A DNA stretch of 64,000 nucleotides from Helianthus annuus. Lineage: Eukaryota; Streptophyta; Magnoliopsida; Asterales; Asteraceae. The notes below the pieces were generated by a model. That model searched no databases, was not told where the DNA came from, and worked only from the letters and a program-made list of their open reading frames with translations. The position numbers were made by a program, and so were the translations under genes. The DNA is taken from assembly GCF_002127325.2 (NCBI RefSeq), contig NC_035438.2, forward strand, positions 89,838,385 to 89,902,384, written 5' to 3'. Positions 11,772-64,000 of the stretch are shown one piece after another; position 1 is the stretch's first letter; every line of letters starts with the position of its first letter.

Positions 11772-11920
11772 CCCCCCCCATTTGTGTTAAAACCCACAAA
11801 ACTGATCAAAGAGTTCTAAGTTGATGCCATTGCTTCATACCTGAGCTCCTGGATCAAGTTTAGCTTTCGGGGACCCTTCGTAAGTGTTCTTTCATTCCTT
11901 TAATCGCTTTCTAGTGCTAA

Positions 11921-12631
11921 AGTCAAACTTTGTTTGACTTTCTGCGTTGACCAGCCTATGGTCAACACGAAGTTCATTGGAACTTCATAACGTGAGCGTG
12001 ATCACGATGGTTATAGTCCGTAGTGACTATACCTACTGACTACCACGTTATCTAGGCTCAGTGATGAGTCGTAATTTCGGCCAAAATGCGCATTCTTGCG
12101 TATTTTGTAACCAAACTACTTGTGAGTATCAAAACCGTTTGTTTTGATACCAAACCTGTTTTCTAAACTTAGTTAAGCATGTTCTAACATGCTTAGCTCG
12201 TCACTTTTAGTATAGTGCTTTTATAGGGTCGTAAGGTAAGCGATCTAAACAATCGCTTACACTTTCCAACCCGACCCATTTGGTCGATCATTAGGATCTG
12301 ACCAAACACATTAGGTGACCATAGATGTAATCTTCCAAGGTTATACCTTATGGTCACGATCTTAGGTGTTCCAAACGCGTTCTACGCGAAAGACGCGTTA
12401 AGGTAGCATAAGCTACCTAAACGGGTCGTAATGGGTCGTAAGCACTTAGGTTAAGTTTCACTTTAGTATGTGGGCATTGTTAAACCATATTACACGAGTC
12501 TCCATACTCGTTTGATTTACGAACCCGCATCCTATCCGATCCTCCGATTTAGGTCCGGTATATTAACATAGTCACCTACTAGGTGCCGTTTGATATTCCG
12601 TGACCTCTAGCATTGTGTGATTATTACACAA
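11921..12631 (+). repeat. String of about 14 short hairpins in C LTR (R/U5 side)
   Basis: Back-to-back inverted repeats with short loops. Examples: AGTCAAAC 11921/11932, GTTGACCA 11946/11959, GAAGTTC 11969/11980, TATAGTC 12012/12025, AAAATGCGCA 12083/12097 (one mismatch), GTATCAAAAC 12126/12141, TAAGCATGTT 12174/12186, GTAAGCGAT 12236/12252, GTGACCATA 12315/12349, AACGCGT 12374/12393, AGGTAGC 12401/12412, ACGAGT 12494/12506, CACCT 12573/12581, TTGTGT 12613/12626. The string is also present in LTR2 (about 18600-19310) and, with a short deletion, LTR3 (about 25230-25915). It lies downstream of the TATA box, so it would be in RNA. Confidence 0.8.
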
Positions 12632-13875
12632 GGACTTCAAAGCAATCTCAGGTGAGTACATTGAACCCCTCTTTTACTGTTATCCAAACTGTTTTGGGGT
12701 GAAACACATGTGCCTACTTGTTACCTTCATGTTTTCCTGTTTTCACATCATATACTTGCTATGTTCATTAGTACATTTATAGTACCTGATTTCAAAACAT
12801 TATATGCTATGTATGCCTGTTGTGTGCATACTTAGTACATCACTTTACAATACATCACATGCTACGTACGCCTATTGTGTGCATACTTAGTACATCACTT
12901 TACAATACATTTCATGCTACGTACGCCCATTGTGTGCATACTTAGTACATTGTTTCTCATTGCATTTCTGTTGCATATGCTCATCCAGCATATGAACACA
13001 TTATACTACATTTTGAACCGTTGTAACCGTTTGACTATGTGAACCGTCTTAGCCCTTTGATTATATGAACCGTTCGTAACCTTTGAACCGTGTGAACCAG
13101 TTGTATCTGTTGACATGATTTACATTTGACAATAGACATTTGACTATACATAAACATTTCTACAATTGTTAAACATTACATCTTGATGGTTTGGTTTGAG
13201 TAAGTGATCTAAGCAACGAGGCGTGTGTAATACGATACAAGCATGGTGGATACGCCGCTGGTACTTCCTATATATAAGTGTTTGTATGGTATTACATATC
13301 GTAGCGTTATTTGAATCATTTCAATTTGAGACATATAACATTTCATACAAATAACACACTTTTCAAATGACCTTGATTTACAAACAACTCATCTTATACA
13401 AACTCATTTTTCATGGTTAGTCAGTTAACCATACATTACTCTCTTATTTTTACATATCATTTGATCTTATCGTTTTTCAAATGATTTACAAGACAAAGCA
13501 AATTACAAGGTTCATGACTAAACATTTTCTCAAACATAAGTCATGAATTCTGTTTTTACAAAACCAATGTATCTCACAGGCATTTTTATGCTGACGTACC
13601 TATTTTCAAATGTGTTTTCAGGAGATGATTCATAGGACTTATCAAGACATACTTAGGCGGACCTGTGCCTTAGTAACTTAAAACGAGACAAGAACTAGTT
13701 AAATTATGTTAAGTACTCTTTGGTTCTTGTTTAAAACAATGTAAACTTTCATGTTTGATTAATAAAACGAAACTTCAATTGCCATGGATTTGAAACAATT
13801 GATTCTGTTACAACACTCCCCGATGTTTCTGCCACGATTTGTATGTTCTTCGTGGTCGGGGTGTGACAGAAAAGT

Positions 13876-13888
13876 TGGTATCAGAGCC
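13876..13888 (+). other. C primer binding site (first interior)
   Basis: TGGTATCAGAGCC, seven bases after the LTR1 end, complementary to initiator tRNA-Met. The second interior has the same site at 20555-20567. Confidence 0.85.
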
Positions 13889-14478
13889 AATGGTTATAGG
13901 GAATTAGGTTATTAGTAATGCTTTGACCTTTTCTATAACTTTCCTAGGACCCTAACGCGAGTTTACTTGCGTTTAGTCATAAAACAATACCATCACCTAT
14001 CCTTAGGCGACGACCACAACAAGAACATAAATTTCAAAACCGCTTTGAAAAATAATCATCTGTCCTAGGATGGTTGATTACTAGGTTTTGAACCCTCTGT
14101 TATAAGGTTTTGAACCCCTTTGAATTTTCAAAACTCTCGTCAAAGTTTTGGGTCCTAAATAGTGTGAACACGTGCAAACTGGAAGAGTGAATGCCTGTAC
14201 TCTGGGTTTTCTGTCTAAGGCTAGAGTGTTCGTACAAATCCATATAATCGGACCAGTCACTCTTACCTGGGAACTCTTGGGGTGAGTGTCCACTTATAGG
14301 CGAGCATGTCTTCGCGATACACTATGAGGATCTATTTGCTTTGATTCGGCCTTGGTGTTGTTTGTTTGCTTCGTGGTTCAAACAAATGACCATCAACCAT
14401 GATTATGGTCGGTAATTGTAACATCCTATTCTTACCCAATGCCATTTCATTTGTTTTCTTTCCTGTTTCTCTTTTAGA

Positions 14479-15585
14479 ATGCCTCCTCGACACGAAAACC
14501 AGATAGCAACTGCCGAACTGGCAGAGATCAATGTGCAGCAAATGGCTGCTCAATTCCCAAACCTCTTTGCTCAATGGAACCAAGCCAACAACAACAATAA
14601 TGCCCCCTGCAACTTCAAGACGTTCAACTCGGCTAAGCCATCAAAGTTTTCTGGGTCTCAAGGAGCGACTGCACTTCTGCAATGGTTCGAGAGTTTAGAG
14701 AGCACCTTCAGACATGTTCAATGTCCAAACGAGCGAAAGGTAGAATTCGCATCTAGCGTCTTTGAGAAACGAGCTTTGACATGGTGGAATGGTGTGATGA
14801 GAGATAGGGGTGCCGATGTGGCACTGGCTCAAACATGGCAAGAGCTTCGAGCTCTGATGATGAAGGAATTCTGTCCTCGTCACGAGATCAGGGCCTTGGA
14901 AATGGAGTTCGACGATCTTAAGCAAGTTAGCGGTGAGCATCGAGCCTACACAGACCGTTATGAGGAGTTAAGTTTGTTATGCCCGGATATGGTTACACCT
15001 TTGGATAAGGCAATCGAAAAGTACATTGATGGCCTCCCTGACTCAATACAAGACATTGTGACTGGTAGCAACCCTACTACAATTAGACAGGCCATTGAGC
15101 TATCTACAACCTTGACTGAATCAAAGATCAGGAAAGGTAAACTTTTCCGAAAAGGTGACAAGAAACCGGTCGGGGAATCGAACCCAATCGAGGAATCAAA
15201 GACCATGGATGAACAGAGTGAATCCCCTAAGAAGTCAAAGAAGCGAAAGGCTTCTCAGAACTTCGCCGTGGTCGCTCACAATGGTCAAGCCGTCCCCAAC
15301 CAACCAGCTCAACCCCCTGCTAGAAAACCATACAATGGAACTGCACCCTTGTGCAACCAATGTAGCCTCCATCATCACGCCAATGTATAGTGCCGCAAAT
15401 GCCAAACTTGTGGACTTATAGGCCACACAGCGAGAGTCTGCCCAGCTGCAGCTACGCTAAACCAAGCTGGCAACAATCCTGCTCAAGGTCGTTTTCTACC
15501 AGGCTCTTTTTTCAACTGTGGCGAGATGGGTCATTTCCGAAGAAATTGCCCAAAGCTTGCTAATGCAAATCCAGCACAGGGATGA
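14479..15585 (+). CDS. gag: Ty3/Gypsy-type gag, copy 1, with in-frame TAG before the zinc knuckles
   Basis: Gag forms the particle and binds element RNA. The ATG follows a polypyrimidine stretch and AG (acceptor-like) at 14476-14477. The first 303 codons hold the Retrotrans_gag-type domain, with the conserved ALTWWNGV segment (codons ~95-102) and the EFCPRHEI region. The frame meets TAG at 15388-15390 and then stays open for 64 more codons to TGA at 15583-15585. That tail holds two zinc knuckles: CRKCQTCGLIGHTARVC (CX2CX4HX4C from its second Cys pair) and FFNCGEMGHFRRNC. The second knuckle has lost its first cysteine to phenylalanine. The same TAG is present in copy 2. No pol frame follows. 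Confidence 0.85.
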
Positions 15586-16652
15586 GCATCTGACTGACTA
15601 GAAGACAACATCGTTTAGAAATAATCACGTCTTATGTATTATTTTCTTTTGTTGTCAAGGCCCAAAGAAACAGTTGTTATCGTTGTTTATAAATAAATCT
15701 TTTATTTACATTGCAATGAATTTATGTGGTTGCATGTATAAACGACATATCCCCTACAATACCGACAAGCGAGGAATCGTGTTCCTTGAAAAGCAAACTA
15801 CCCCCCAAAATTTTTCCATCTTATGATCCCTTGTATTTTCCCACGAAATTCCTAAGTACTCGTTTATTCTAAGGAAACGAAGTACAAGGCGCAAGTTACA
15901 ACACGAGACGAATACCCAAAGTACCACTGTAAATCCTTGATAGGGTACCTAGGGGTATTTCCGTAAATCCTAAAATTGATGTGTTCCTTAATTCGAATAT
16001 TACGTTTCTTTGAAAACAAAATCGAATTTTTGAGAGATCTTCCTATCTTTTCAGATAGATCCCAGAGGACATTGCAGCCCATCGACTGGTTTCCATATCC
16101 GTATTCAATCAATAACAAGTTAATAACAAATTATAATCAAGTTAAACAATTATGTGACTTTGTGCTTATGTGTTCCCTTATGTGTTGTTGTGTGATCCAA
16201 ATTATGTTATCCAAATCCTTATAGAATCTTCCATATCATTCGTATAAAGGATTCATAGTAGGATACCCAAAGGTACTACATAAAAATCCTCAATGGACTT
16301 CTTCGATATAGTTAGGTCCCTTGGATTATAAAGTACTACTTCATAATTAGACCCCTTGGGTGGTCTAGTTAAACAGATTGATCCAAAAATCTGGCTAGGA
16401 ATATCATGTGATGATATAGCTGAAAGGACTCCTTGGTGGCCTAACTAAGAAGATCCCATGTCGATCTAATTAAAAGGAACTGATGGAAGTCTAGTCACCA
16501 TCATCACAAGTTTGATATTTTTCCCCAAAACATTACAAAACAAACTGTGCGGACTGTGCAAGGGATTACGTAATTATGGATGCATACATAATTATGGAAT
16601 TTAGTGCACAGAAGTCACAGCAAGTTCTGTCATGTGTCTAGAGTTAACCCTG
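15586..16652 (+). other. C interior, non-coding stretch after gag
   Basis: No ORF with recognisable content. The small frames at 15864-16224 are on both strands of the same AT-rich segment. The copy at 22266-23333 is nearly identical. Confidence 0.6.
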
Positions 16653-16653
16653 T

Positions 16654-17270
16654 TCATTTCCAACTCTGAAGAAGCAACCGTTGAAAATGACTCCGTTAAT
16701 TCATTTTCGTTTCTGAAGATTTATCCGTTGGGGAAATGTATATCCGTTGTGTAATCCTTCATTTCCAACTCTGATGAAGCAACCGTTGAAAATGACTCCG
16801 TTAGTTCATTTTTGTTTCTGAAGAATTATCCTTTGGGGAAATGAATACCCGTTGTGTAAATCCTTCAATTCCAACTCTGATGAAGCAATCGCTGAAAATG
16901 ACTCCGTTAGTTCATTTTCGTTTCTGAAGAATTATCCGTTGGGGAAATGAATATCCGTTGTATAATCTTTCATTTCCAACTCTGATGAAGCAACCGTTGA
17001 AAATGACTCCGTTAGTTCATTTTCGTATCTGAAGATTTATCCGTTGGGGAAATGAATACCCGTTGTGTAATCCCTCATTTCAATTTCTGATGAATCAACC
17101 ATTGAAAATGACTCCGTCTGTTCACTTTTCGCTTCTGAAGATTTGTCCGTTGAGGAAATGAACTTTCGTTTGCTTATTCCGTCATTTCCATTTCTGAAGA
17201 ATACTCGTTGAGGAAAATGACTTCGTCTGTTCATTTTCGTTTCTGAAGAATGACCGTTAAGGAAATAACA
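16654..17270 (+). repeat. ~106-bp tandem repeats upstream of polypurine tract, copy 1
   Basis: Unit starts TCATTTCCAACTCTGATGAA at about 16654, 16759, 16865, 16970, 17075 and 17182, giving five full units and a partial one with period 105-107. Each unit contains inner words GAAAATGACTCCGTTAGTTC and TATCCGTTGGGGAAATGAA. The block ends about 100 bases before the purine-rich tract at 17354-17366. Frames through it are not genes. Confidence 0.85.
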
Positions 17271-17366
17271 GGATATTACTTTGCATATCGCTGATGGTTA
17301 TTGGCAGAGTCACAAATAGATTCTATGAATAAATTTCGGGATGAAATTTCCTAAAGTAGGGAAGAC

Positions 17367-20300
17367 TGTGACACCTGTGTCACCGCGACCATCAAACAAA
17401 TACCAAGCCGATGAAATATTGTATTTCATACTTGGGATCTTGTATAAATATGTGTATCTTTTGCACATATCAATTCTTGTTCAATTTCAAACTCTACATC
17501 GCTTTCTGGAGAATTATACGCAAACTGGTGCGTAAACGTACTCAGTTTAATGCGACAAATACTCCAGAACATCAACATATACTTAACATACCTTAAATAA
17601 CCTTTACATAACTTAGAAATAAGTTTTGAAGACTTTGGTATGGCAAAAAAACAAGTTAATTCGCTTATAGGGACTAAACTTGACAAACTGCGAAAGTATG
17701 CCAATTTGAACTGTAACGAACATTCCGGAACATGTCCATAAGTTAAACATACCATAAATATCCTTTACATAGCTTAGAAATAGGCTTTGACGGGTTTGGT
17801 ATGCTAAAACAAATTTTGGATCATTCAGGGGCTAAAAGTGTCAAAAAGTGCACAAGTTTGCACTTTCGCACATAACTTACGTTCTGAATACATCCGGACA
17901 TCCAAAAATTTATGTAAGCACTAAAATAATTTATTTTAGTGTTTGGCATAAGAAAAATCCATTCGTCGCGTCATTTGGATTGTTTTTCGCACTTATGCGC
18001 ATTCCATCGTAATTAAGCGAACATCGCGTTCGTACGGCCAAAGGAACCAACATCCGTCATATTTTTGAGCATGTTTCATGTCCACAATGTTTAGGCATCA
18101 TTTTAGGGCCTTAAAGTTGGCTTTACGGGCCTTAGAAGTGTCGGAAATGGCTTAAATATGCAACAGGGACCAAAACAGCCATTTCTGAAAGTTTGTGTAG
18201 ATCAGACATGCCCAGGCGGCCCGCCTGAGTTTTGTCCATATGCTGACGCAGGCCGCGTGGCCCCTGCAGATGCAGAAACTTTCTTTTTGGCTGAAGTTGG
18301 CCTTTCAAACACTCCAAAGGGCAATGCCCTTTCACAATCTCAGGAGTTAAGGGTCATTATGAGCCACCACAACATCTTGACAAGTGTACGCATAAGATCG
18401 TGGCACGATATTCAAGAAACAATCCTAACGGCTTTACCTTTCCTATAAATACCCCCCCATTTGTGTTAAAACCCATAAAACTTATCAAAGAGCGCTAAGT
18501 TGATGCCATTGCTTCATACCTGAGCTCCTGGATCAAGTTTAGCTTTCGGGGACCCTTCGTAAGTGTTCTTTCGTTCTTTTAATCGCGTTCTAGTGCTAAA
18601 GTCAAACTTTGTTTGACTTTCTGCGTTGACCAGCCTATGGTCAACATGAAGTTCATTGGAACTTCATAACGTGAGCGTGATCACGATGGTTATAGTCCGT
18701 AGTGACTATACATACTGATTACCACGTTAGCTAGGCTCAGTGACGAGTCGTAGTTTCGGCCAAAATGCGCATTCTTGCGTATTTTGTAACCAAACTACTC
18801 GTGAGTATCAAAACCATTTGTTTTGATACCAAACCTGTTTTCTAAACTTAGTTAAGCATGTTCTAACATGCTTAGCTCGTCACTTTTAGTATAGTGCTTT
18901 TATAGGGTCGTAAGGTAAGCGATCTAAACAATCGCTTACACATTCGAACCCGACCCATTTGGTCGATCATTAGGAGCTGACCAAACACATTAGGTGACCA
19001 TAGCTATAACCTTCCGAGGTTATACCTTATGGTCACGATGTTAGGCGTTCCAAACGCGTTCTTCGCGAACGACGCGTTAAGGTAGCATAAGCTACCTAAA
19101 CGGGTCGTAATGGGTCGTAAGCACTTAGGTTAAGTTTCACTTTTGTATGTGGGCATTGTTAAACCATATTACACGAGTCTCCATACTCGTTTGATTTACG
19201 AACCCGCATCCTATCCGATCCTCCGATTTAGGTCCGGTATATTAACATAGTCACCTACTAGGTGCCGTATGATATTCCGTGACCTCTAGCATTGTGTGAT
19301 TATTACACAAGGACTTCAAAGCAATATCACGTGAGTACATTGAACCCCTCTTTTACTGTTTTCCAAACTGTTTTGTGGTGAAACACATGTGCCTACTTGT
19401 TACCTTCATGCTTTCCTGTTTTCACATCATATACTTGCTATGTTCATTAGTACATTTATAGTACATGATTTCAAAACATTATATGCTATGTATGCCCATT
19501 GTGTGCATACTTAGTACATCACTTTACAATACATCACATGCTATGTACGCCCATTGTGTGCATACTTAGTACATCACTTTACAATACATTTCATGCTACG
19601 TACGCCCATTGTATGCATACTTAGTACATTGTTTCTCATTGCATTTCTGTTGCATATGCTCATCCAGCATATCAACACATTATACTACATTTTGAACCGT
19701 TGTAACCGTTTGACTATGTGAACCGTCTTTACCCTTTGATTATATGAACCGTTCATAACCTTTGAACCGTGTGAACCAGTTGTATCTGTTGACATGATTT
19801 ACATTTGACAATAGACATTTGACTATACATAAACATTTCTACAATTGTTAAACATTACATCTTGATGGTTTGGTTTGTGTAAGTGATCTAAGCAACGAGC
19901 CGTGTGTAATACGATACAAGCATGGTGGATACGCCGCTGGTACTTCCTATATATAAGTGTTCGTATGGTATTACATATCGTAGCGTTATTTGAATCATTT
20001 CAATTTGAGACATATAACATTTCATACAAATAACACACTTTTCACAAGACCTTGATTTACAAACAACTCATCTTATACAAACTCATTTTCCATGGTTAGT
20101 CAGTTAACCATACATTACTCTCTTATTTATACATATCATTTGATCTTATCGTTTTTCAAATGATTTACAAGACAAAGCAAATTACAAGGTTCATGACTAA
20201 ACATTTTCTCAAACATAAGTCATGAATTCTGTTTTTACAAAACCAATGTATCTCACAGGCATTTTTATGCTGACGTACCTATTTTCACATGTGTTTTCAG

Positions 20301-20547
20301 GAGATGATGCATAGGACTTATCAAGACATACTTAGGCGGACCTGTGCCTTAGTAACTTAAAACGAGACAAGAACTAGTTAAATTATGTTATGTACTCTTT
20401 GGTTCTTGTTTAAAACAATGTAAACTTTCATGTTTGATTAATAAAACGAAACTTCAATGGCCATGGATTTGAAACAATTGATTCTGTTACAACACTCCCC
20501 AATGTTTCCACCACGATTTGTATGTTCTTCGTGGTCGGGGTGTGACA
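17367..20547 (+). repeat. C LTR 2 (shared middle LTR)
   Basis: 3181 bp, the same length as LTR1, with TATAAATA, GTAAGTG (18559) and the hairpin string at corresponding positions. It serves as 3' LTR of copy 1 and 5' LTR of copy 2. Confidence 0.9.
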
Positions 20548-21158
20548 GAAAAGTTGGTATCAGAGCCAATGGTTATAGGGAATTAGGTTATTAGTAATGC
20601 TTTGACCTAGTCTATAACTTTCCTAGGACCCTAACGCGAGTTTACTTGCGTTTAGTCATAAAACAATACCGTCACCTATCCTTAGGCGACGACCACAACA
20701 AGAACATAAATTTCAAAACCGCTTTGAAAAACTAATCATCTGTCCTAGGATGGTTGATTACTAGGTTTTGAACCCTCTGTTATAAGGTTTTGAACCCCTT
20801 TGAATTTTCAAAACTCTCGTCAAAGTTTTGGGTCCTAAATAGTGTGAACACGTGCAAACTGGAAGAGTGAATGCCTGTACTTTGGGATTTCTGTCTAAGG
20901 CTAGAGTGTTCGTACAAATCCACATAATCGGACCAGTCACTCTTACCTAGGAACTCTTGGGGTGAGTGTCCACTTATAGGAGAGCATGTCTTCGCGATAC
21001 ACTATGAGGATCTATTTGCTTTGATTCGGCCTTGGTGTTGTTTGTTTGCTTCGTGGTTCAAACAAATGACCATCAACCATGATTATGGTCGGTAATTGTA
21101 ACATCCTATTCTTACCCAATGCCATTTCATTTGTTTTCTTTCCTGTTTCTCTTTTAGA

Positions 21159-22265
21159 ATGCCTCCTCGACACGAAAACTAGATAGCAACTGCCGAACTG
21201 GCAGAGATCATTGCGCAGCAAATGGCTGCTCAATTCCCAAACCTCTTTGCTCAATGGAACCAAGCCAACAACAACAATAATGCCCCCTGCAACTTCAAGA
21301 CGTTCAACTCGGCTAAGCCATCAAAGTTTTATGGGTCTCAAGGAGCGACTGCACTTCTGCAACGGTTCGAGAGTTTAGAGAGCACCTTCAGACATGTTCA
21401 ATGTCCAAACGAGCGAAAGGTAGAATTCGCATCTAGCGTCTTTGAGAAACGAGCTTTGACATGGTGGAATGGTGTGATGAGAGATAGGGGTGCCGATGTG
21501 GCACTGGCTCAAACATGGCAAGAGCTTCGAGCTCTGATGATGAAGGAATTCTGTCCTCGTCACGAGATCAGGGCCTTGGAAACGGAGTTCGACGATCTTA
21601 AGCAAGTTAGCGGTGAGTATCGAGCCTACACAGACCGTTATGAGGAGTTAAGTTTGTTATGCCCGGATATGGTTACACCTTTGGATAAGGCAATCAAAAA
21701 GTACATTGATGGCCTCCCTGACTCAATACAAGACATTGTGACTGGTAGCAACCCTACTACAGTTAGACAGGCCATTGAGCTATCTGCAACCTTGACTGAA
21801 TCAAAGATCAGGAAAGGTAAACTTTTCCGAAAAGGTGACAAGAAACCGGTCGGGGAATCGAACCCAATCGAGGAATCAAAGACCATGGATGAACAGACTG
21901 AATCCCCTAAGAAGTCAAAGAAGCGAAAGGCTTCTCAGAACTTCGCCGTGGTCGCTCACAATGGTCAAGCCGTCCCCAACCAACCAGCTCAACCCCCTGC
22001 TAGAAAACCATACAATGGAACTGCACCCTTGTGCAACCAATGTAGCCTCCATCATCACGCCAATGTATAGTGCCGCAAATGCCAAACTTGTGGACTTATA
22101 GGCCACACAGCGAGAGTCTGCCCAGCTGCAGCTACGCTAAACCAAGCTGGCAACAATCCTGCTCAAGGTCGTTTTCTACCAGGCTCTTGTTTCAACTGTG
22201 GCGAGATGGGTCATTTCCGAAGAAATTGCCCAAAGCTTGCTAATGCAAATCCAGCACAGGGATGA
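21159..22265 (+). pseudogene. gag: Ty3/Gypsy-type gag, copy 2, two in-frame stops
   Basis: The homologous ATG is at 21159, but codon 8 is TAG (21180-21182). The remaining gag domain is open from an internal Met at 21222 to the shared TAG at 22068-22070, then to TGA at 22263-22265. The gag core (ALTWWNGV, EFCPRHEI) is nearly identical to copy 1. Unlike copy 1, the second zinc knuckle CFNCGEMGHFRRNC is intact here. Copies 1 and 2 therefore carry different private lesions plus one shared TAG just before the knuckles. Confidence 0.85.
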
Positions 22266-23333
22266 GCATCTGACTGACTAGAAGACAACATCGTTTAGAA
22301 ATAATCACGTCTTATGTATTATTTTCTTTTGTTGTCAAGGCCCAAAGAAACAGTTGTTATCGTTGTTTATAAATAAATCTTTTATTTACATTGCAATGTA
22401 TTTCTGTGGTTGCATGTATAAACGACATATCCCCTACAATACCGACAAGCGAGGAATCGTGTTCCTTGAAAAGCAAACTACCCCCCAAAATTTTTCCATC
22501 TTATGATCCCTTGTATTTTCCCACGAAATTCCTAAGTACCCGTTTATTCTAAGGAAACGAAGTACAAGGCGCAAGTTACAAAACGAGACGAATACCCAAA
22601 GTACCACTATAAATCCTTGATATGGTAACTAGGGGTATTTCCGTAAATCCTAAAATTGATGTGTTCCTTAATTCGAATATTACGTTTCTTTGAAAACAAA
22701 ATCGAATTTTTGAGAGATCTTCCTATCTTTTCAGATAGATCCCAGAGGACATTGCAGCCCATCGACTGGTTTCCATATCCGTATTCAATCAATAACAAGT
22801 TAATAACAAATTATAATCAAGTTAAACAATTATGTGACTTTGTGCTTATGTGTTCCCTTATGTCTTGTTGTGTGATCCAAATTATGTTATCCAAATCCTT
22901 ATAGAATCCTCCATATCATTCGTATAAAGGATTCATAGTAGGATACCCAAAGGTACTACATAAAAATCCTCAATGGACTTCTACGATATAGTTAGGTCCC
23001 TTGGATTATAAAGTACTACTTCATAATTAGACCCCTTGGGTGGTCTAGTTAAACAGATTGATCCAAAAATCTGGCTAGGGATATCATGTGATGATATAGC
23101 TGAAAGGACTCCTTGGTGGCCTAACTAAGAAGATCCCCTGTCGATCTAATTAAAAGGAACTGATGGAAGTCTAGTCACCCTCATCACAAGTTTGATATTT
23201 TTCCCCAAAACATTACAAAACAAACTGTGTGGACTGTGCAAGGGATTACGTAATTATGGATGCATACATAATTATGGAATTTAGTGCACAGAAATCACAG
23301 CAAGTTCTGTCATGTGTCTAGAGTTAACCCTGT
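22266..23333 (+). other. C interior copy 2, non-coding stretch after gag
   Basis: Near-identical to 15586-16652; nothing further recognised. Confidence 0.6.
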
Positions 23334-23945
23334 TCATTTCCAACTCTGAAGAAGCAACTGTTGAAAATGACTCCGTTAATTCATTTTCGTTTCTAAAGAT
23401 TTATCCGTTGGGGAAATGTATATCCGTTGTGTAATCCTTCATTTCCAACTCTGATGAAGCAACCGTTGAAAATGACTCCGTTAGTTCATTTTCGTTTCTG
23501 AAGAATTATCCGTTGGGGAAATGAATACCCGTTGTGTAAATCCTTCATTTCCAACTCTGATGAAGCAACCGCTGAAAATGACTCCGTTAGTTCATTTTCG
23601 TTTCTGAAGAATTATCTGTTGGGGAAATGAATATCCGTTGTGTAATCTTTCATTTCCAACTCTGATGAAGCAACCGTTGAAAATGACTCTGTTAGTTCAT
23701 TTTCGTATCTGAAGATTTATCCGTTGGGGAAATGAATACGCGTTGTGTAATCCCTCATTTCCATTTCTGATGAAGCAACCATTGAAAATGACTCCGTCTG
23801 TTCACTTTTCGCTTCTGAAGATTCGTCCGTTGAGGAAATGAACATTCGTTTGCTTATTCCGTCATTTCCATTTCTGAAGAATACTCGTTGAGGAAAATGA
23901 CTTCGTCTGTTCATTTTCATTTCTGAAGAATGACCGTTAAGGAAA
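23334..23945 (+). repeat. ~106-bp tandem repeats upstream of polypurine tract, copy 2
   Basis: Same array as at 16654-17270, with the same number of units and a few base changes. It is followed by the purine tract AAAGTAGGGGAGAT ending at 24047 against LTR3. Confidence 0.85.
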
Positions 23946-24047
23946 TGACAGGATATTACTTTGCATATCGCTGATGGTTATCGGCAGAGTCATAAATAGA
24001 TTCCTACGAATAAATTTCGAGACGAAATTTCCTAAAGTAGGGGAGAT

Positions 24048-27000
24048 TGTGACACCTGTGTCACCGCGACCATCAAACAAATACCAAGCCGATGAAATAT
24101 TGTATTTCATACTTGGGATCTTGTATAAATATGCGTATCTTTTGCACATATCAATTCTTGTTCAATTTCAAACTCTACATCGCTTTCTGGAGAATTATAC
24201 GCAAACTGGTGCGTAAACGTACTTAGTTTAATGCGACAAATACTCCGGAACATCAACATATACTTAACATACCTTAAATAATCTTTACGTAACTTAGAAA
24301 TAAGTTTTGAAGACTTTGGTATGGCAAAAACAAGTTAATTCGCTTACAGGGACTAAACTTGACAAACTGCGAAAGTATGCCAATTTGAACTGTAACGAAC
24401 ATTCTGGAACATGTCCATAAGTTAAACATTCCATAAATATCCTTTACATTGCTTAGAAAGAGGCTTTGAGGGGTTTGGTATGCTAAAACAAACTTTTGGA
24501 TCATTCAGGGGCTAAAAGTGTCAAAAAGTGCAAAATTTTGCACTTTCGCACATAACTTACGTTCTGAATACATCCGGACATCCAAAAATTTATGTAAGCA
24601 CTAAAATAATTTATTTTAGTGTTTGGCATAAGAAAAATCCATTCGTCGCGTCATTTGGATCGTTTTTTGCACTTATGCGCATTCCGTCGTAGTTAAGCGA
24701 ACATCGCGTTTGTACGGCCAAACGAACCAACATCCAGCATATTTTTGAGCATGTTTCATGTCCACGATGTTTAGGCATCATTTTAGGGCCTTAAAGTTGG
24801 CTTTACGGGCCTTAGAAGTGTCGGAAATGGCTTAAATATGCAACAGGGACCAAAACTGCCATTTTTGAAAGTTTGTGCAGATCAGACATGCCTAGGCGGC
24901 CGGCCTGAGTTTTGTCCATATGCTGACGCGGGCCGCGTGGCCCCTACAGATGCAGAAACTTGCTTTTTGGCTGAAGTTGGCCTTTCAAACACTCCAAAGG
25001 GCAATGCCCTTTCACAATCTCAGGAGTTAAGGGTCATTATGAGCCACCACAACATCTTGACAAGTGTACGCATAAGATCGTGGCACGATATTCAAGAAAC
25101 GATCCTAACGGCTTTACTTTTTCTATAAATACCCCCCCATTTGTGTTAAACCCACAAAACTGATCAAGTTTAGCTTTCGGGGGACCCTTCGTAAGTGTTC
25201 TTTCGTTCTTTTAATCGCTTTCTAGTGCTAAAGTTAAACTTTGTTTGACTTTCTGCGTTGACCAGCCTTTGGTCAACACGAAGTTCATTGGAACTTCATA
25301 ACGTGACTATACCTACTGATTACCACGTTATCTAGGCTCAGTGACGAGTCGTAGTTTCGGCCAAAATGCGCATTCTTGCGTATTTTGTAACCAAACTACT
25401 CGTGAGTATCAAAACCGTTTGTTTTGATACCAAACCTGTTTTCTAAACTTAGTTAAGCATGTTCTAACATGCTTAGCTCGTCAATTTTAGTATAGTGCTT
25501 TTATAGGGTCGTAAGGTAAGCGATCTAAACAATCGCTTACACTTTCGAACGCGACCCATTTGGTCGATCATTAGGATCTGACCAAACACATTAGGTGACC
25601 ATAGCTGTAACCTTCCGAGGTTATACCTTATGGTCACGATGTTAGGCGTTCCAAACGCATTCTACGCGAATGACGCGTTAAGGTAGCATAAGCTACCTAA
25701 ACGGGTCGTAATGGGTCGTAAGCACTTAGGTTAAGTTTCACTTTAGTATGTGGGCATTGTTAAACCATATTACACGAGTCTCCATACTCGTTTGATTTAC
25801 GTACCCGCATCCTATCCGATCCTCCGATTTAGGTCCGGTATATTAACATAGTCACCTACTAGGTGTCGTTTGATATTCCGTGACCTCTAGCATTGTGTGA
25901 TTATTACACAAGGACTTCAAAACAATCTCATGTGAGTACATTGAACCCCTCTTTTACTGTTTTCCAAACTGTTTTGGGGTGAAACACATGTGCCTACTTG
26001 TTACCTTCATGCTTTCCTGTTTTCACATCATATACTTGCTATGTTCATTAGTACATTTATAGTACATGATTTCAAAACATTATATGCTATGTATGCCCAT
26101 TGTGTGCATACTTAGTACATCACTTTACAATACATCACATGCTACGTACGCCCATTATGTGCATACTTAGTACATCACTTTGCAATACATTTCATGTTAC
26201 GTACGCCCATTGTGTGCATACTTAGTACATTGTTTCTCATTGCATTTCTGTTGCATATGCTCATCCAGCATATGAACACATTATACTACATTTTGAACCG
26301 TTGTAACCGTTTGACTATGTGAACCGTCTTAAACCTTTGATTATATGAACCATTCGTAACCTTTGAACCGTGTGAACCAGTTGTATCTGTTGACATGATT
26401 TACATTTGACAATAAACATTTGACTATACATAAACATTTCTACAATTGTTAAACATTACATCTAGATGGTTTGGTTTGAGTAAGTGATCTAAGCAACGAG
26501 GCGTGTGTAATACGATACAAGCATGGTGGATACGCCGCTGGTACTTCCTATATATAAGTGTTTGTATGGTATTACATATCGTAGCGTTAATTTGAATCAT
26601 TTCAATTTGAGACATAGAACATTTCATACAAATAACACACTTTTCACAAGACCTTGATTTACAAACAACTCATCTTATACAAACTCATTTTTCATGGTTA
26701 GTCAGTTAACCATACATTACTCTCTTATTTATACATATCATTTGATCTTATGGTTTTTCAAATGATTTACAAGACAAAGCAAATTACAAGGTTCATGACT
26801 AAACATTTTCTCAAACATAAGTCATGAATTCTGTTTTTACAAAACCAATGTATCTCACATGCATTTTTATGCTGACGTACCTATTTTCACATGTGTTTTC
26901 AGGAGATGATGCATAGGACTTATCAAGACCTACTTAGGCGGACCTGTGTCTTAGTAACTTAAAACGAGACAGGAACTAGTTAAATTATGTTATGTACTCT

Positions 27001-27149
27001 TTGGTTCTTGTTTAAAACAATGTAAACTTTCATGTTTGATTAATAAAACGAAACTTCAATTGCCATGGATTTGAAACAATTGATTCTGTTACAACACTCC
27101 CCGATGTTTCCGCCACGATTTGTATGTTCTTCGTGGTCGGGGTGTGACA
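24048..27149 (+). repeat. C LTR 3
   Basis: 3102 bp. It is shorter than the other two mainly through deletions of about 50 bases near 25160 (between TATA and donor) and about 30 bases near 25306 (inside the hairpin string). It ends GGTGTGACA at 27149, followed by GTATC. Confidence 0.9.
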
Positions 27150-27418
27150 GTATCTATGCTGCATTTTTTATAATTATTTTTTTTTTTGCTGAAACAAGTG
27201 ATTTTTTGTAACTTTTGAGAAAACAAATTTCGGAAAAAAACCTTTTGGATGGCCTAGTTCTCACGATTCTCACAACTCAAGGTGTTTCTCATTTTAACCC
27301 ATCCCTATATAAATATATACACATATATTGAACGAAAATATGTATAATATATCAATGCTCGGTTAAAATGTATAACATATCGGACAAAGACAAAAAATAT
27401 ATATTTAACAAGTGTAAG

Positions 27419-33940: not shown

Positions 33941-35632
33941 TGATGTGTGTAAAATGCAACAAATAAATTATATCAAATAAGGCATAAAACTAACCCTTTT
34001 TAAGTATTAATGTTGGAAAAAGAGTGCTTTTGTCTTCCTTTTGTATTTTCAGGAATAATGAGCTCGAATTCACAAAAGAAGCAAAAAGACAGCTAAATCT
34101 AACATAAATACAAGAAAAGGAACATAAGTGGATTGCCCGACCCCTCAACAGCATCCTCCCAAGCAAAATAGAGAAGACAGAAGACTGAATACGCCCCGTG
34201 CTCAGCCAGCACGGGGCCATGCCCAAGAAGCAGCAGAAAAGACAAACCTATAGAAGCTTCTATTGCCCACCACGGGGCCGTGTCCAGTGAACACGGGGGC
34301 GTGGCGAAAGTACAGCAGGCGCATTAATTGTAATTGCGAATTACAATTAATGAGGAGAGAGAGTGTCAGACAGGCACGGGGCATGTCCAGCGGACACGGG
34401 GCCGTGCCCAGCCTTCTGTTCAGCCTATAAATAGGAGTGCTTGGTTTCATTGCAACTCATCCCTTGGCACACCACCTCTCTCACACTTCATCCACCACCC
34501 ACCACTACCATAACACCATCATCCACCACCATCATCCATTGTCCATCATAGAGTGTATGAGTCATCTCGGGATCCAAGATTGATCGTAAGAGTTCTTGAC
34601 AATCAAGGCCATGTTTGCCTAAGTCTCTTACATCACTTGGTGAAGACAAGTGTTTAGTATAATACTTTTTATTTTTAATCTTTTGCACTTTTTATTTGGT
34701 TTTGTATTAATGACTTTAATAACTAGTTGCTTATGTTGAAGGTGATCTTTCCTTATCGTTTGTCCGTGGTGTCTTGGCATTATTTTACTGTCTATATAAA
34801 ATAAAAGATTTTCAGTATTCATATCTCCACGGTCTATATGGAGGTATGTTGGCTACCTGGTCGGGGGTTAAGGGAACGGTTTGGTAAGGGTATTGCCCTT
34901 GTTCAGCGTTTAGAGGTCCTACAAGGGACCTGGGTCAAATTTAGTAGGATCTCCTTCAATGCCCATAGGTATTGGATGGCGGGGATCCAAACTCTTTGAC
35001 CCCCTCATAAGTTAACTACTATTAATACTATAACCCGGCTATTTAGGACTCTATCCCTGCTGACTCGGACTACTTAGTCGAGGGTAACGTCACCGCCAAA
35101 AGCGGGGCCTACCATAATTTGCATTAATAACTTAATTCATTATCTTCCAATAATTCAACCCTTTAGGATTGTATCATTGCTGACTCAAACTACTGGGTTG
35201 AGGGTAACGTCGCCTTCAAAAGAGGGGCCTACTACAATAACTAAGATAATCTCTTAAACAAGTGCAAAAGTGCGAAAATAATCAAAGGTTATACTAATAC
35301 ACGAGTCGGATCCAAGTGATTCATCTTGTCTATCTGTTTTTATTTTTATTTTATTTTTCAGCATTTAGTTAGTTTTTATTTTCTTAGTTTAAAAATCTTT
35401 TCTAACTTTATGATTTGATTAGACGTTGAGGATAAACCGGTACTAAAAGCTCTTGTGTCCTTGGACGACCTCGGTATCTTACCAACACTATACTACGTCC
35501 ACGATGGGTGCACTTGCCCATATGTGTGTTTAGTGTTAGTAAATATCGTGTTTTATAAATTTAAAACTTGGCTAAAAGTGTAAAAAGGGCTTAAAATATA
35601 CATTAAAAATATATTACACTACACGCACATCA
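33941..35632 (+). repeat. B LTR, 5'
   Basis: TATA box TATAAATA at 34426-34433. Three palindrome pairs sit just upstream of it (34190-34221, 34271-34303, 34375-34406). Further on, a ~67-bp module with a bulged stem (GACTCGGACTACTTAGTCGA near 35063) is present twice, at about 35047-35113 and 35167-35233. Confidence 0.9.
34190..34406. promoter_or_regulatory. Three CACG-N4-CGTG palindrome pairs upstream of B TATA box
   Basis: Pairs begin at 34190/34210, 34271/34292 and 34375/34395. The first and third have a one-base deletion in one member, giving 20 instead of 21. In the 3' LTR the third pair (48879/48900) is intact with 21-bp spacing. The placement directly upstream of TATAAATA suggests binding sites, by inference. 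Confidence 0.75.
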
Positions 35633-48443: not shown

Positions 48444-50137
48444 TGATGTGTGTAAAATGCAACATATAAATTACATCAAATAAGGCATAAAACTAACCCT
48501 TTTTAAGTACTAATGTTGGAAAAAGAGTGCTTTTGTCTTCCTTTTGTATTTTCAGGATTAAATGAGCTCAAATTCACAAAAGAAGCAAAAAGACAGCTAA
48601 ATCTAACATAAAAACAAGAAAAGGAACATAAGTGGATTGCCCGACCCCTCAACAGCATCCTCCCAAGCAAAATAGAGAAGGCAGAAGACTGAACACGCCC
48701 CGTGCTCAGCCAGCACGGGGTCGTGCCCAAGAAGCAGCAGAAAAGACAAACCTATAGAAGCTTCTATTGCCCACCACGGGGCCGTGTCCAGTGAACACGG
48801 GGGCGTGGCGAAAGTATAGCAGGCGCATTAATTGTAACTGCGAATTACAATTAATGAGGAGAGAGTGTGTCAGACAGGCACGGGGGCGTGTCCAGCGGAC
48901 ACGGGGTCGTGCCCAGCCTTCTGTTCAGCCTATAAATAGGAGTGCTTGGTTTCATTGCAACTCATCCCTTGGCACACCACCTCTCTTACACTTCATCCAC
49001 CACCCACCACCACCATAACACCATCATCCACCACCATCATCCATTGTCCATCATAGAGTGTGTGAGTCGTCTCGGGATCCAAGATTGATCGTAAGAGTTC
49101 TTGACAATCAAGGCCATGTTTGCCTAAGTCTCTTACATCACTTGGTGAAGACAAGTGTTTAGTATAATACTTTTTATTTTTAATCTTTTGCACTTTTTAT
49201 TTGGTTTTGTATTAATGACTTTAATAACTAGTTGCTTATGTTGAAGGTGATCTTTCCTTATCATTTGTCCGTGGTGCCTTGGCATTATTTTACTGTCTAT
49301 ATAAAATAAAAGATTTTCACCATTCATATCTCCACGGTCTATATGGAGGTATGTTGGCTACCTGGTCGGGGGTTAAGGGAACGGTTTGGTAAGGGTCTTG
49401 CCCTTGTTCAGCGTTTAGAGGTCCTGCAAGGGACCTGGGTCAAATTTAGTAGGATCTCCTTCAATGCCCATAGGTATTGGATGGCGGGGATCCAAATTCT
49501 TTGACCCCCTCATAAGTTAACTACTATTAACACTATAACCCGGCTATTTAGGACTGTATCCCTGCTGACTCAGACTACTTAGCCGAGGGTAACGTCACCG
49601 CCAAAATAGGGGCCTACCATAATTTTCATTAATAACTTAATTCATTATCTTCCAATAATGCAACCCTTTAGGATTGTATCCTTGCTGACTCAAACTACTG
49701 GGTTGAGGGTAACGTCGCCTTCAAAAGAGAGGCCTACTACAGTAACTAAGATAATCTCTTAAACAAGTGCAAAAGTGCGAAAATAATCAAAGGTTATACT
49801 AATACACGAGTCGGATCCAAGTGATTCATCTTGTCTATCTGTTTTTATTTTTATTTTATTTTTCAGCATTTAGTTAGTTTTTATTTTCTTAGTTTAAAAA
49901 TCTTTTCTAACTTTTTGATTTGATTAAACGTTGAGGATAAACCGGTACTAAAAGCTCTTGTGTCCTTGGACGACCTCGGTATCTTACCAACACTATACTA
50001 CGTCCACGATGGGTGCACTTGCCCATATGTGTGTTTAGTGTTAGTAAATATCATGTTTTATAAATTTAAAACTTGGCTAAAAGTGTAAAAAGGGCTTAAA
50101 ATATACATTAAAAATATATTACACTACACGCACATCA
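48444..50137 (+). repeat. B LTR, 3'
   Basis: 1694 bp, nearly identical to the 5' LTR. Palindrome pairs at 48688-48720, 48776-48808 and 48879-48911. Followed by target duplication TCAGC. Confidence 0.9.
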
Positions 50138-51765
50138 TCAGCCATTTGTTTTGATCATGATTGTGTTTCATGATTGACTTTATGACATGTGCATCTGATG
50201 ATATTTATTTAATGATCATGATTAATGATTGACTTTATGATATGTGGCATGTTTGATTCGATTGGTTATGGATTTGGGTAAACAAGAATGGGCCGCACAT
50301 GGGTGAGAGCCTGTATTCGGCTGGGTTGGGTACTAAGGATGGGCCACGAGCTAAGTTGGTTATGTGTTAGAAATCTATGATGAAAAATTATTGGAAGTAT
50401 TATTATGTTGTTCGGTTTGCTATGGACGAGAATCACATGACTCCTATATGATCAAATTGGTTAGTGGCTATTCTAGGGTTGCATGTGCCAACTATGAACA
50501 GTAGGTTAATGTATCTATATAATGACTGCATGAGTAGAGGATTGTGTGAATAAGTTGTAGCATCAACTGTTAATAATGTTGCTTATAATCCAATGAAGTA
50601 AATTGGTTCTCACACCCAGTACACTGAACTATTAGACATTGTTGCATAACATGAATATGAACTATATGCTTGATTGAGTAATATAGCTGTTATGTGTGAA
50701 TCAGTGCTCATTATTTTGCGTGTATCCTATGATTATAACATACGTGAAAACACTACAAACATAAACTGATTATGTGCGTATGAACACTTAGGCTTTGATT
50801 GAATAAATTGATCGAGTGGTTAAGCATACCGAGCAAACCGAGGTGAGTTCACACTCTTTCCAAGGCATGGGATTCCCAAGGGTTGGGAATGGGTAAATGA
50901 ACTAAACGGTAATTACGACCATCCTCCATGGGTAGGATGCCAAGAATACACACTGGACCAAACCTCTATCATGAAGTCCCTCATTTATATCGACTTAATC
51001 GCCGAGGCCTATGGCGAGCGGGTCATTAGTTAATAGCGATATTAGGTTTAACAAATCTCACACCGTGTCGTTCGAACGGGCGTGTACTAATGGACTATGG
51101 GCAAAGGTTCAATGCTGATAGACATTGACTTAGGGCACCTCTTACATTTTCGTAGCAGTCGATACACACGGTCTAGTAACACATGGGAAGCCCCCACTAA
51201 TCTTCGCACACATGTCTGGGAGACCGCGATACGAATTAATACGATACATGGTTTACAAAACGAACATATGATTCACGAAACGAATACTATAACTAAACAA
51301 CCAACTGTGAACTCGCTTAACTTTGTTGTTGACTCGTTGTTACATGCCTTGCAGGCCTTTAGGTACATATCAAAGGAACTTGCTGTCTGAGAAGCTGGAG
51401 TGGTCATGGGTCGAGTAACATGGAAACGCAACACAAGACTAAGAGCTTATACATGTGGTTTTCATTAACACGTATCGAGTTAAATATGCTTCCGCTGTAA
51501 ACTGTGAAATATTGTAACACTATTGTTAATAAATGAGAGTTTATTTAAATATACTCATGATGTTCAATGTGATTGGTGGCTAAGATCCTGGTCAGTCACG
51601 CCTCCAAGCGGTGGTACTCCGCATGTGGATTTTGGGGGTGTGACAAAGTCAAGTGTGAGAAGGCCATTTGGCGAAGGAAAACCACCTGATGGTGGGTTTG
51701 GATGGGGTAATGAAACTATAGTTAACCCCAACCGAAGTGAAATGATGACCCTCCCTAAAAATTAG

Positions 51766-60044: not shown

Positions 60045-60053
60045 TATGTAAAA

Positions 60054-60592
60054 GGGAAATTGGTTTGTAATAATCCCAAGTAGATGTTATTGGTCATTGG
60101 CAGTTCCACCTTTGATTATTTCCCCTGCCAGTCCAACCTTTCACATACTTTTCCTCCACTGGTCCCCCGTTAGAAAAACTTAACGGAGTTAAGTTTTTTC
60201 CTAATTGCAAACAGATGTTTGTTTTAGGACTTTTGATCAGAACAATGATGCGAGTCGATTGATATAAAAAACATACCTCGAAACGGTGCTCCAAACGACG
60301 ATAACGGTGCTTCAATTCGAGTGTTTAAACTTCCAATTAACAAGAATCAAGTCATTTGGAGCACCGTTTCGAGGGAAGATTTATGTCAATCAACTCGTAT
60401 CGTCGTTCTGATCAAAAGCCCTAAAGCATTTGTTTGTAATTCGGAAAAAAACTTAGCTCCGTTAAGTTTTTTTTAACGGGGGACCGGTGGAGGAAAAATA
60501 GGTGAAAGGTTGGAGTGGCAGGGGGATTATTCAAAGGTGGGACTGCCAATAGCCAAAGACGTCTAGTATGGATTATTACAGACCAATTTCCC
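60054..60592. mobile_element. 539-bp foldback MITE, Mutator-like by TSD
   Basis: Arms pair nearly end to end. The first 23 bases start GGGAAATTGGTTTGTAATAA and the last 23 are their reverse complement with one mismatch. Long sub-segments pair throughout, such as ACGGTGCTCCAAA against the CATTTGGAGCACCGTTTCG side, and the loop is near 60320. A 9-base flank pair, TATGTAAAA (60045-60053) and TATATAAAA (60593-60601), differs at one base. A 9-bp TSD suggests Mutator-like. No ORF. Confidence 0.8.
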
Positions 60593-60601
60593 TATATAAA
60601 A

Positions 60602-60947: not shown

Positions 60948-61637
60948 TGTGACAACTCGAAATTCCAAGATTCTATTTCGCATTTATTGCACGTTCTTGT
61001 ATTATATAGTTAATTGATTTCACAATTAGTTGCTATGAAATTATATAAGTTTTGATTGTTTGATTGTGCATAGTTGTTTGTTATTTGTGGAATTGGTAAA
61101 TATATGAACTTGGTGGTGAAATTAGGAAATGGTTATGAGATGGTGTGCATGTGTAAAATATAATACTTAGGGATGTAAATGGTAATTAGTGAAATCCTAG
61201 ATACTTAACCCTAATCTCAACTTCACTAATCACTCTTTCACAAAAACCAAAGCACGTACATTCATTTTCTCTAGCAATCATCATCACCAAATCATTGGCA
61301 AGACATCACAAGATTTATTTCTCTTCTTCTCTAGAATCAACACAAGGTAATTGTTAATGATTGTTTGTTGGTTATTGGATTGATATCAATTCTTGATTCT
61401 TGATTATGTATGCATGAAAAACCCTAGCTTCACATGTGATGTTTCTGTGTTTAAGGATCTCCGATTGTTGAGAAACGAATATGAATAGTTGTATGCTCGA
61501 TTATATTGTTCTTGTAATGATTTATTGATGATCATAGGTGGATTATCATGATGATGCCGTCAATATGAATAGAACTAGGGTTTGTTCGTATGCGTAACTG
61601 TTGAATGTTCACGTGTAACTGTTTCAATCGCCATTTG

Positions 61638-62470
61638 ATTGTCTGAGTTTTTGATAATATATGTTAGTCATGAGATAGTCTGAGTTTAACGATTAACATA
61701 TGTCTGAGTTTAATGATCTACATATGTCCGAGTTTATTTTATAAGACACCTAGCCCGACTTTATATACATATAAGATGGTCCGAGTTTGAATGCTTATTA
61801 CATGTCCGAGTTTAATGGATCACTTTGGACCGAGTTTAATGGAGCACTTGAGGACCGAGTTTAATGATGTTGTGTTGTCCGACTTTCTAAGTCTCCATGG
61901 TCCGAATTTATTGAAATAAATATGGACCGAGTTTTTGGTTCTGAATACTACCCGAGTTTAACCCCACACATGCATGGACCGAGTTTAAGAAAACTCACAT
62001 GGTCCGACTTTAAATGCTTGTCCGAGTTTAATCTTTAAATGCTTGTCCGAGTTTATTGTTAATTGTAAGTACGAGTTTGTGTATGTGTTTGGACCGAGTT
62101 TGTTTAGTATAGATGGACCGAGTTTATTCAATGAAGAAGGACCGAGTATATTAAATAAAAATCAAGTCCGAAGTTTATTAAAAACATGCGTGGTCCGAGT
62201 TTAAGAACTCATATGGTCCGAGTTTGGCAAGCCTTCCCTTAGTCCGACTTTGTTGTATCAAAACACCATGACCGAGTTTAATATGAGAATTCTTGCCCGA
62301 CTTTAAACCCCACCCCCATGGTCCGAAGTTGTTATAGAATGCCATATCTTGTCCGACTTTAAACACTTCATGTGGTCCGAGCTTCTATTAAGTATAGTCC
62401 GACTTTGAAATAAGATGTGATCCGAGTTTAACCCATGAGTAGTCCGACTTTCTTTGTTGAGCCTTGCCTG
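61638..62470. repeat. 33-unit array with GTCCGAGTTT core in D LTR
   Basis: I count about 33 copies of a core close to GTCCGAGTTT (GGACCGAGTTT, GTCCGACTTT and similar variants), spaced mostly 20-28 bases, with dissimilar AT-rich spacers. Two classes, CCGAGTTT and CCGACTTT, are mixed. Because the spacers are not repeats of one another it is not a simple satellite. Not seen at this density elsewhere in the window. Confidence 0.85.
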
Positions 62471-62814
62471 AATGTGTTAACATTTGAGTTTTACCATCTG
62501 TGTACTGTGTGATACAATAACAGCATGTACTATGTTCTGTTCTGCATGATATGATACCTGTGTTGCTGTAATTGTGGTATATTACTGTGTTTATGTGCAA
62601 ACCTTGTTAGATGAGTATGTAATCGATTATCACACACTGTTGATTGAACGCCAAGACTTGTAAACCCTAATTGATAATTGATTTCAAACACTTACATTAT
62701 ATCATGTGCAATATATCCTAGGTCGTGTGTAACGGACTTAGGCAATTGTTAAACCCTAGAGCATAGCATACCGAGCAAACCCAAGGTGAGTTCACACTCC
62801 TACTAAGGCATGGG

Positions 62815-63091
62815 ATTCCCGGGTCGTGGGAATGGGATAAAGGTTACCATTGACTAAGAACGTATATATGCTTTTCCTAGACTATCACCTACCATGGTCC
62901 TCGGATGTCAGGACGGTTCCGTAGGTTAGGATAACACCTACGTGGTCATATGCCAATTACTGCCTCGGATGTCAGGCACGCACGTAAAACCTACGTGTAC
63001 GCATTACTTACTTCTATCCTCGGTTGTGAAGGATACGTGCGTAAAACCTACGCACACCCCATACGCGCTACTGTTCTCGGATGAAGAACAG
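62815..63091 (+). repeat. Alternating hairpins with conserved loops in D LTR
   Basis: Stems and loops: ATTCCC (62815/62828); GTCCT loop CGGATGTC (62897-62914); CGTAGGT (62920/62936); TGCCT loop CGGATGTC (62961-62978); CACGTA loop AAACC (62981-62997); TATCCT loop CGGTTGTGA (63015-63035); GTGCGTA loop AAACC (63037-63055); CTGTTCT loop CGGATGA (63071-63091). Loops of the two types are conserved while stems differ on both sides. Confidence 0.85.
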
Positions 63092-63561
63092 GGATGATAC
63101 GAGTAGTTGATACGAATAGTCTAGTGGTCACATAACATGGGAAGCCCCCACCTGTATAACTTACTATTGGCCCAGTAGAGCCACCCGTTACTTACTGTTA
63201 CGCACTTACTTACTGTGAACTCGCTCAACTAGTTTGTTGATCATTCTGTTACATGCCTTGCAGATCGTTAGGTACTTGGAGCTTGCACTGGAGAAACGGG
63301 TCGTTGTGGACAAGGATCGTGGTTTCTACGTTGAACTATTATGACATTTAAAACTATTAACTATTGTTGGATTATTTACTATGCTTCCGCTACACTTTGA
63401 AACTATGGTTATGTTTTGAACACCTATCGTATTGGATGGATGGTTTACATTTATTTTACTTAATATTAATTACATGTTCAATATGATTGGTGGCTTGATC
63501 CTGGTCAGTCACGCTCCCAAGCGGTGATACTCCGCAGGTGGATTTTGGGGGTGTGACAGAT

Positions 63562-63574
63562 TGGTATCAGAGCC
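63562..63574 (+). other. D primer binding site
   Basis: TGGTATCAGAGCC, four bases after the LTR end (initiator tRNA-Met type). Confidence 0.85.
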
Positions 63575-63878
63575 AGGTTATAGAGAACTTGGTTTTAATA
63601 TGGAAAAACGTTTTTATTAAAACCAGACTATAACCAGAACAGTGCTCTCAACGATCCACAACGACGCTTCGCTCCACGTGCAAGACTCGACATCCTAGGT
63701 AATAAGGTTTATGTTTGTTACCTGCTTGCTAGAACTGCATAGAACTTTGCTCGTAGTATGCTTACATTACTTTGCTCACTACTTGTTATTGCTTGAGAAC
63801 ACTTACGTGCTTACACTCTTCTGTCATCGCACTATTCGCGAACTTTTCTCACTTATGTTGCCTTTGATGTGAAGATCA

Positions 63879-63986
63879 ATGGCCGCACGAATTAACATGA
63901 CTCAAGCCCAGCTAGAGGCTCTCATTGCTGCGGCAGTTGCAGCCGCTCAAGCAGGTAGTATATCCTGCAGTATAGACTCATACTAG
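63879..63986 (+). CDS. gag: D gag, N-terminal start (35 codons before a stop)
   Basis: ATG at 63879 opens a frame starting MAARINMTQAQLEALIAAAV, alanine/glutamine-rich, a typical plant Gypsy gag N-terminus. A TAG at 63984-63986 ends it. The sequence GCAGGTAGTATATCCTGCAG around 63950-63970 looks like a short hairpin or a splice-like site. It may be a lesion or an intron boundary; the window ends too early to tell. Confidence 0.5.
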   Translation: MAARINMTQAQLEALIAAAVAAAQAGSISCSIDSY

Positions 63987-64000
63987 GGTCTTTAGATCCT

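Follow-up and report, generated by a model that had tools for sequence, protein, structure and literature searches.

The window, a 64,000-nucleotide stretch of DNA (G000:C6:89838385–89902384), belongs to a plant-like genome of 3.01 Gb, assembled into contigs of chromosome size. Near its end lies a long terminal repeat, the D LTR (TGTGACA...TGTGACA), at about 60948–63558 on the forward strand, with ends inferred from the sequence. A primer-binding-site-like TGGTATCAGAGCC follows 3' of the LTR at 63562–63574 and presumably resembles the tRNA-Met type. Immediately downstream of the window is an open frame of 1526 codons (L009, 8–4588), a single long gag-pol frame. Three pieces of this frame gave Pfam matches to a Ty3 capsid, a CCHC knuckle, a retroviral protease, reverse transcriptase (RT), RNase H and an integrase zinc domain. 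A match to an SH3 domain of the Tf2-1 type was also obtained, and the integrase core scored just under the cut-off. Judging from the order gag, protease, RT, RNase H and integrase, and from the primer-binding-site-like stretch after the LTR, the host element is a Ty3-type LTR retrotransposon. A genome search with 62800–63200 gave 1942 first-look candidates, and the best 40, which were scored, are each 100% identical. So many identical matches suggest recent activity of the element.

D LTRs at G000:C6:89901184, 89908901 and 89916618 form a regular tandem with a spacing of 7717 bases; a comparable regular triple is found on C8 and pairs on further contigs. The LTRs are mosaics. From 62764 to about 63500, the copies L001–L008 match the window at 97–100% identity in each 100 bases; just upstream of 62764, seven of these eight do not align with it, and L006 aligns back to about 62660. 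The 5' part of the L001 LTR is about 79% alike to the window D LTR. Within the D LTR, 61728–62460 holds 27 spaced short repeats with a CCGAGTTTAAT-like core, a period of about 25 nt and differing spacers. The core is kept in L001, L004 and L007 with mostly different spacers, although a few units are common to L004 and L007. A foldback element of 541 nt (60053–60593) adjoins the LTR and matches its own reverse complement at 80%. Another family occupies 10688–27150 as LTR–internal–LTR–internal–LTR, the two internal regions each measuring about 3.5 kb; each of its LTRs has 12–16 perfect hairpins with stems of 7–10 bp. A further LTR pair (33941–35632 and 48444–50137, 97.5% identical) is enriched in perfect hairpins and has GC-rich 10-bp and AT-rich 14-bp perfect stems at 34150–34400.

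The 195 nucleotides at 62897–63091 of the D LTR contain seven non-overlapping perfect hairpins on the forward strand (stem of at least 5, loop of 3–9), in the strict order A1 B1 A2 B2 A3 B3 A4. The A hairpins mostly have a CGG-TTG-like loop, and the B type carries the loop AAACC. A1 (62897–62914) has the stem GTCCT/AGGAC and A2 (62961–62978) the stem TGCCT/AGGCA, both with the loop CGGATGTC. A3 (63015–63035) pairs TATCCT with AGGATA around CGGTTGTGA, and A4 (63071–63091) pairs CTGTTCT with AGAACAG around CGGATGA. B2 (CACGTA/TACGTG, 62981–62997) and B3 (GTGCGTA/TACGCAC, 63037–63055) share the loop AAACC. B1 (CGTAGGT/ACCTACG, 62920–62942) has a loop, TAGGATAAC, unlike that of B2 and B3, and in the minimum free energy (MFE) fold of 231 nt its 5' arm pairs with an upstream ACCTAC, not with its own 3' arm. 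The initial annotation had named the other six hairpins, and all are present at the positions and with the stems that it gave; B1 was overlooked, so the true total is seven. The alternation of two loop types that it described also holds, and once B1 is added it runs A-B-A-B-A-B-A without exception. Upstream, a further hairpin, H0 (ATTCCC/GGGAAT, 62815–62833, forward strand), was found by reading the sequence; its loop-side extensions vary by subfamily (e.g. ATTCCCAA/TTGGGAAT).

Dinucleotide shuffles of the 195 nt (n=2000) gave a mean of 1.07 hairpins and at most 5; none reached seven. Outside 62897–63091, the hairpin count of the D LTR is at background, with 14 before the block against a shuffle mean of 12.5 (75/200 shuffles have at least 14) and, downstream of it, a single hairpin where shuffles average 2.2.

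The array recurs at the same place in related LTRs, with two kinds of stem-loop in variable number. The ends of a block were set by CATACCGAGCAAACC and GTTACATGCCTTGCAG. Together with the window, twenty 10-kb stretches, placed mostly at D copies, yielded 27 blocks, 11 of them unique. By pattern search, the H0 motif occurs at about 6,500 places in the genome: H0-anchored patterns matched 881+898 and 2407+2304 sites genome-wide and none in backwards controls. Forty H0 places were fetched, 20 per pattern, picked by motif variant among the matches listed (the first 100 each, on C1 and C2). Reading of their hairpin lists showed A-type or B-type hairpins, in varying number, in 38 of the 40. These comprise 20/20 from the first list, where L049–L055 have one B each plus others, and 18/20 from the second, the exceptions being L081 and L084. 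A-type stems with other loops are seen in L070–L074, L079 and L085, the loop CCTTGGGT and close variants of it occurring in L070–L074. A-B units of about 56 nt make up the arrays of L057, L060 and L064, and A-only arrays at 35 nt are found in L014, L075–L078 and L083. L080 has eight A hairpins, with two alternating stem kinds and similar loops, and in the close relative L090, B1 is tandemly duplicated as a unit. The homologous block of a divergent relative LTR lies within the window at 50825–51354 (forward strand) and carries other hairpins. L010, L011 and L012 have, in place of the A/B array, a different hairpin module that is repeated and whose inner stems vary (TTCGCACAC..TGCC..GGC.GCGA). 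Searches of viral_contigs and genome_contigs gave no plant copies, and Rfam 15 gave no match above the gathering score in 60950–64000.

The initial annotation regarded the joint change of both sides of a stem as the mark of a maintained RNA or cruciform, and proposed comparing a family alignment with a shuffled control. We aligned 16 A/B-type arrays, chosen by eye from 84 unique blocks; A-only arrays and the L049–L055, L070–L085, L089 and L010–L012 types lie outside this alignment. In it, 96.3% of cells are paired. Base pairs changed on both sides number 17, versus 7.3 (sd 1.8) in shuffles that, like the B- and A-module controls below, ignore relatedness (0/500), and cells changed on both sides number 41 versus 11.5 (0/500). 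The number of standard pair types did not rise significantly (44/500). In a control that keeps relatedness, in which pairing partners were slid by 1–3 columns, two-sided pairs fell from 17 to 0–2, although the structure was that of row L057, which favours L057-based pairing in this comparison. There are thus more paired substitutions than in the shuffled control, and the reading survives.

Taken separately, the 32 distinct B modules (seven pairs) have a covariation score of 0.185, versus 0.075 (sd 0.015) in shuffles (0/500), and 15 cells changed on both sides versus 4.9 (0/500). Pairs changed on both sides were only mildly raised (3 versus 1.9, 52/500), and pair types were not raised (271/500). 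Positions 3–7 of the A modules, found by a search that fixed the two inner stem bases, form 196/300 Watson–Crick pairs, versus 135.9 (sd 6.1, maximum 160) in 5000 permutations. There are 14 distinct perfect A stems. Entire modules are also sometimes exchanged between positions (as with the second A module, in L060 and L064). Because of such exchange, independent events are fewer than cells, and the counts overstate independence. Mean pairwise column identity in the 16-array alignment is 0.86 for stems, 0.82 for loops and 0.74 for linkers.

The clearest individual comparison is that of D with L090. Only four stem substitutions are found in the seven hairpins, and they amount to two complete compensations in B3 (63039 with 63053, and 63043 with 63049). 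All other differences within 62764–63240 are indels or fall in loops, linkers and flanks. We also fetched 20 L015-type copies and counted 19, the mis-oriented L040 being left out. They carry 16 one-sided stem changes (four to G-U) and no two-sided ones, as expected of dead copies; as a test of covariation within the subfamily the comparison was set aside, the copies being too young. Across the aligned arrays, the two arms of a stem change together at homologous positions and the loops remain alike, a pattern suggesting that a folded shape is being preserved.

The stability of the block is ordinary on the forward strand (z −1.37 for 231 nt and −0.06 for 507 nt), and whole-block folding energy was dropped as evidence for this reason. 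Minus-strand folding is somewhat stronger than chance would give (z −2.23). The signal of the array is its repeated perfect stems and their covariation, not its stability. A possible long-range closing stem surrounds the block, with a 5' arm GTGAGTTCACA at 62786–62796 and a 3' arm TGTGAACTCGC at 63214–63224 (both forward strand). It is paired in the MFE folds of D and of the divergent relative. Both arms are found in 67/77 unique blocks (allowing up to 3 and up to 2 substitutions). Since they are nearly invariant and do not covary, they are uninformative, and we rejected the closing stem as a proven structure.

Compensation alone does not imply RNA. With helix 8 and one constant U-G pair omitted, the 16-array alignment has 19 G-U mismatches, 11 A-C mismatches and 25 of other kinds; among the unique modules of the 84 blocks, counted only if mostly paired, G-U and A-C mismatches number 11 each. 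G-U wobbles therefore show no clear strand bias. Of the earlier claim, the paired change holds up, while a preference for RNA over DNA does not follow from it. Some features of the LTR suggest that transcription may start upstream of the block. The motif CAAG|GTAATTG at 61347 is invariant in 9 sequences; upstream of it, a TATA-like AAATATAATAC is seen in 2/9 and AATAAATATTAC in 4/9, the other 3 not being covered.

Our leading reading, held tentatively and at somewhat less than even confidence, is that the array consists of stem-loop protein-binding sites in the leader RNA of the LTR, with Gag the likeliest reader. The array, modular and variable in number, occupies the 3' part of LTRs in a large Ty3-type group and would be transcribed within the leader (R/U5) of the element RNA. 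The repeated loops would serve as protein-binding sites, most likely for the element's own Gag with its CCHC zinc knuckle, and the binding would serve packaging or dimerisation of the genomic RNA. The stems would be replaceable scaffolds for the loops, and the long-range stem may unite the array as one domain. A bolder version, which we regard as doubtful, is an evolvable string of beads in which two kinds of RNA stem-loop alternate inside the LTR. Its modules would turn over fast in number, order and stems while loops and pairing are kept, and the string would act as a serial Gag-binding packaging code that separates co-resident subfamilies.

A mutational origin is unlikely, though the likeliest of the alternatives. 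Template switching by RT in a hairpin, or hairpin-templated repair, would copy one arm onto the other time and again, creating and restoring perfect stems without selection on the fold. Stems of up to 10 bp in L070 and L080, the duplication of B1 as a unit in L090 and the lack of a clear G-U bias are consistent with such copying. Perfect hairpins also abound in the LTRs of other families in the window and are much scarcer in their internal regions: the LTRs of families A and C have 13.4–15.2 stem base pairs per 200 nt versus 5.8–7.5 shuffled, and their internal regions 7.9–8.9 versus 6.7–7.1. By the same measure, the D LTR has 9.4 versus 6.2 and the rest of the window 9.6 versus 7.4. However, copying of arms leaves the conservation of loops unexplained, and in D the hairpins are restricted to a single block within the LTR. 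The young L015-type copies, with their one-sided changes only, argue against restoration on that time scale.

The palindromes may instead act as DNA, as repeated inverted transcription-factor sites in cis. ACGT, a bZIP core, occurs in many B arms. In Sirevirus LTRs, for which such sites have been proposed, the repeated motifs are palindromes located upstream of the TATA box (PMC2829016). The B3 hairpin of D has ACGT on neither arm and is still paired, whereas that of L090 has it on both, which argues against simple sites for an ACGT factor. The outer stem bases also vary and yet pair, unlike those of a fixed site, and we consider this explanation quite unlikely.

Improbable to a greater degree is control of splicing in the leader. 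The hairpins would then lie in an intron from AAG|GTGAGT (62786) to TTGCAG| (63263) and regulate the balance of unspliced and spliced RNA, the closing stem pairing the 5' splice site. GTGAGT and CTTGCAG around the block are common to D and the divergent relative, and the invariant motif at 61347 with the TATA-like stretch upstream would fit such a leader. Dicot introns are usually AT-rich, so the GC content of 62786–63263 (0.47, versus 0.38 for the LTR) counts against an intron. The retrocopied junction pattern CAAG-CATACC has 11 matches genome-wide; the seven that were fetched are all ordinary unspliced variants, and the candidate was rejected. Scarcely credible is the notion that the hairpins are neutral relics of tandem duplication and recent common ancestry, whose covariation would be an artefact produced by relatedness and by the swapping of modules: modules do seem exchanged as cassettes (e.g. 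L060 versus L064) and the shuffles ignore phylogeny, but the near-complete pairing, the collapse of paired changes in the slid control (its structure taken from one aligned row) and the B3 compensations between D and L090 speak against it.

The Gag-binding reading has a counterpart in retroviruses. Their packaging signals consist of several short leader hairpins in which the loops are conserved and the stems tolerate change, and a zinc-knuckle Gag recognises them. The D array, set beside these signals from sequence alone, resembles them in its short hairpins, conserved loops and tolerant stems; it differs in lying inside the LTR, in its variable number and in its alternation. Packaging signals have, to our knowledge, hardly been described for plant Ty3 elements. 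The many arrays with covarying stems within a single genome would form a natural library in which structure, loop specificity and subfamily identity can be separated by sequence and tested in vitro. The array is also a clean case for distinguishing selection on a fold from hairpin repair by template switching, a question for palindrome-rich LTRs.

The nearest described system is that of the Sirevirus palindromes. Three papers (PMC2829016, PMC10760457, PMC5311732) describe how short palindromes or hairpins cluster within one region of Sirevirus (Copia) LTRs, to which small RNAs map in maize (Bousios 2016 Genome Res, as cited in these). The likeness lies in such clustering at one place in a plant LTR. 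Sireviruses belong to the Copia superfamily, whereas the D element is of the Ty3 type (capsid, protease, RT, RNase H, then integrase), and maize Ty3 elements are reported generally to have no obvious structure peak (PMC10760457). The Sirevirus motif is one palindrome with a CGG-CCG dyad core (PMC2829016); in D, two types of hairpin alternate, each with a loop and with stems that vary. That core occurs in 0/7 D stems; the wider module searches fixed inner stem bases and are uninformative on this point. Sirevirus motifs are placed upstream of the TATA box (PMC2829016); D has a TATA-like stretch some 1.7 kb upstream of its hairpins. Plant LTR retrotransposons are also reported to contain quadruplex-forming motifs (PMC3902901), likewise structure-forming DNA at discrete places in the LTRs, with a fold that differs from hairpins. 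The titles and abstract openings listed in our literature searches describe no such array, which is not proof of absence from print. Hairpin arrays are thus already known from Copia/Sirevirus LTRs, and the alternating two-hairpin array of a Ty3-type element is a new variant.
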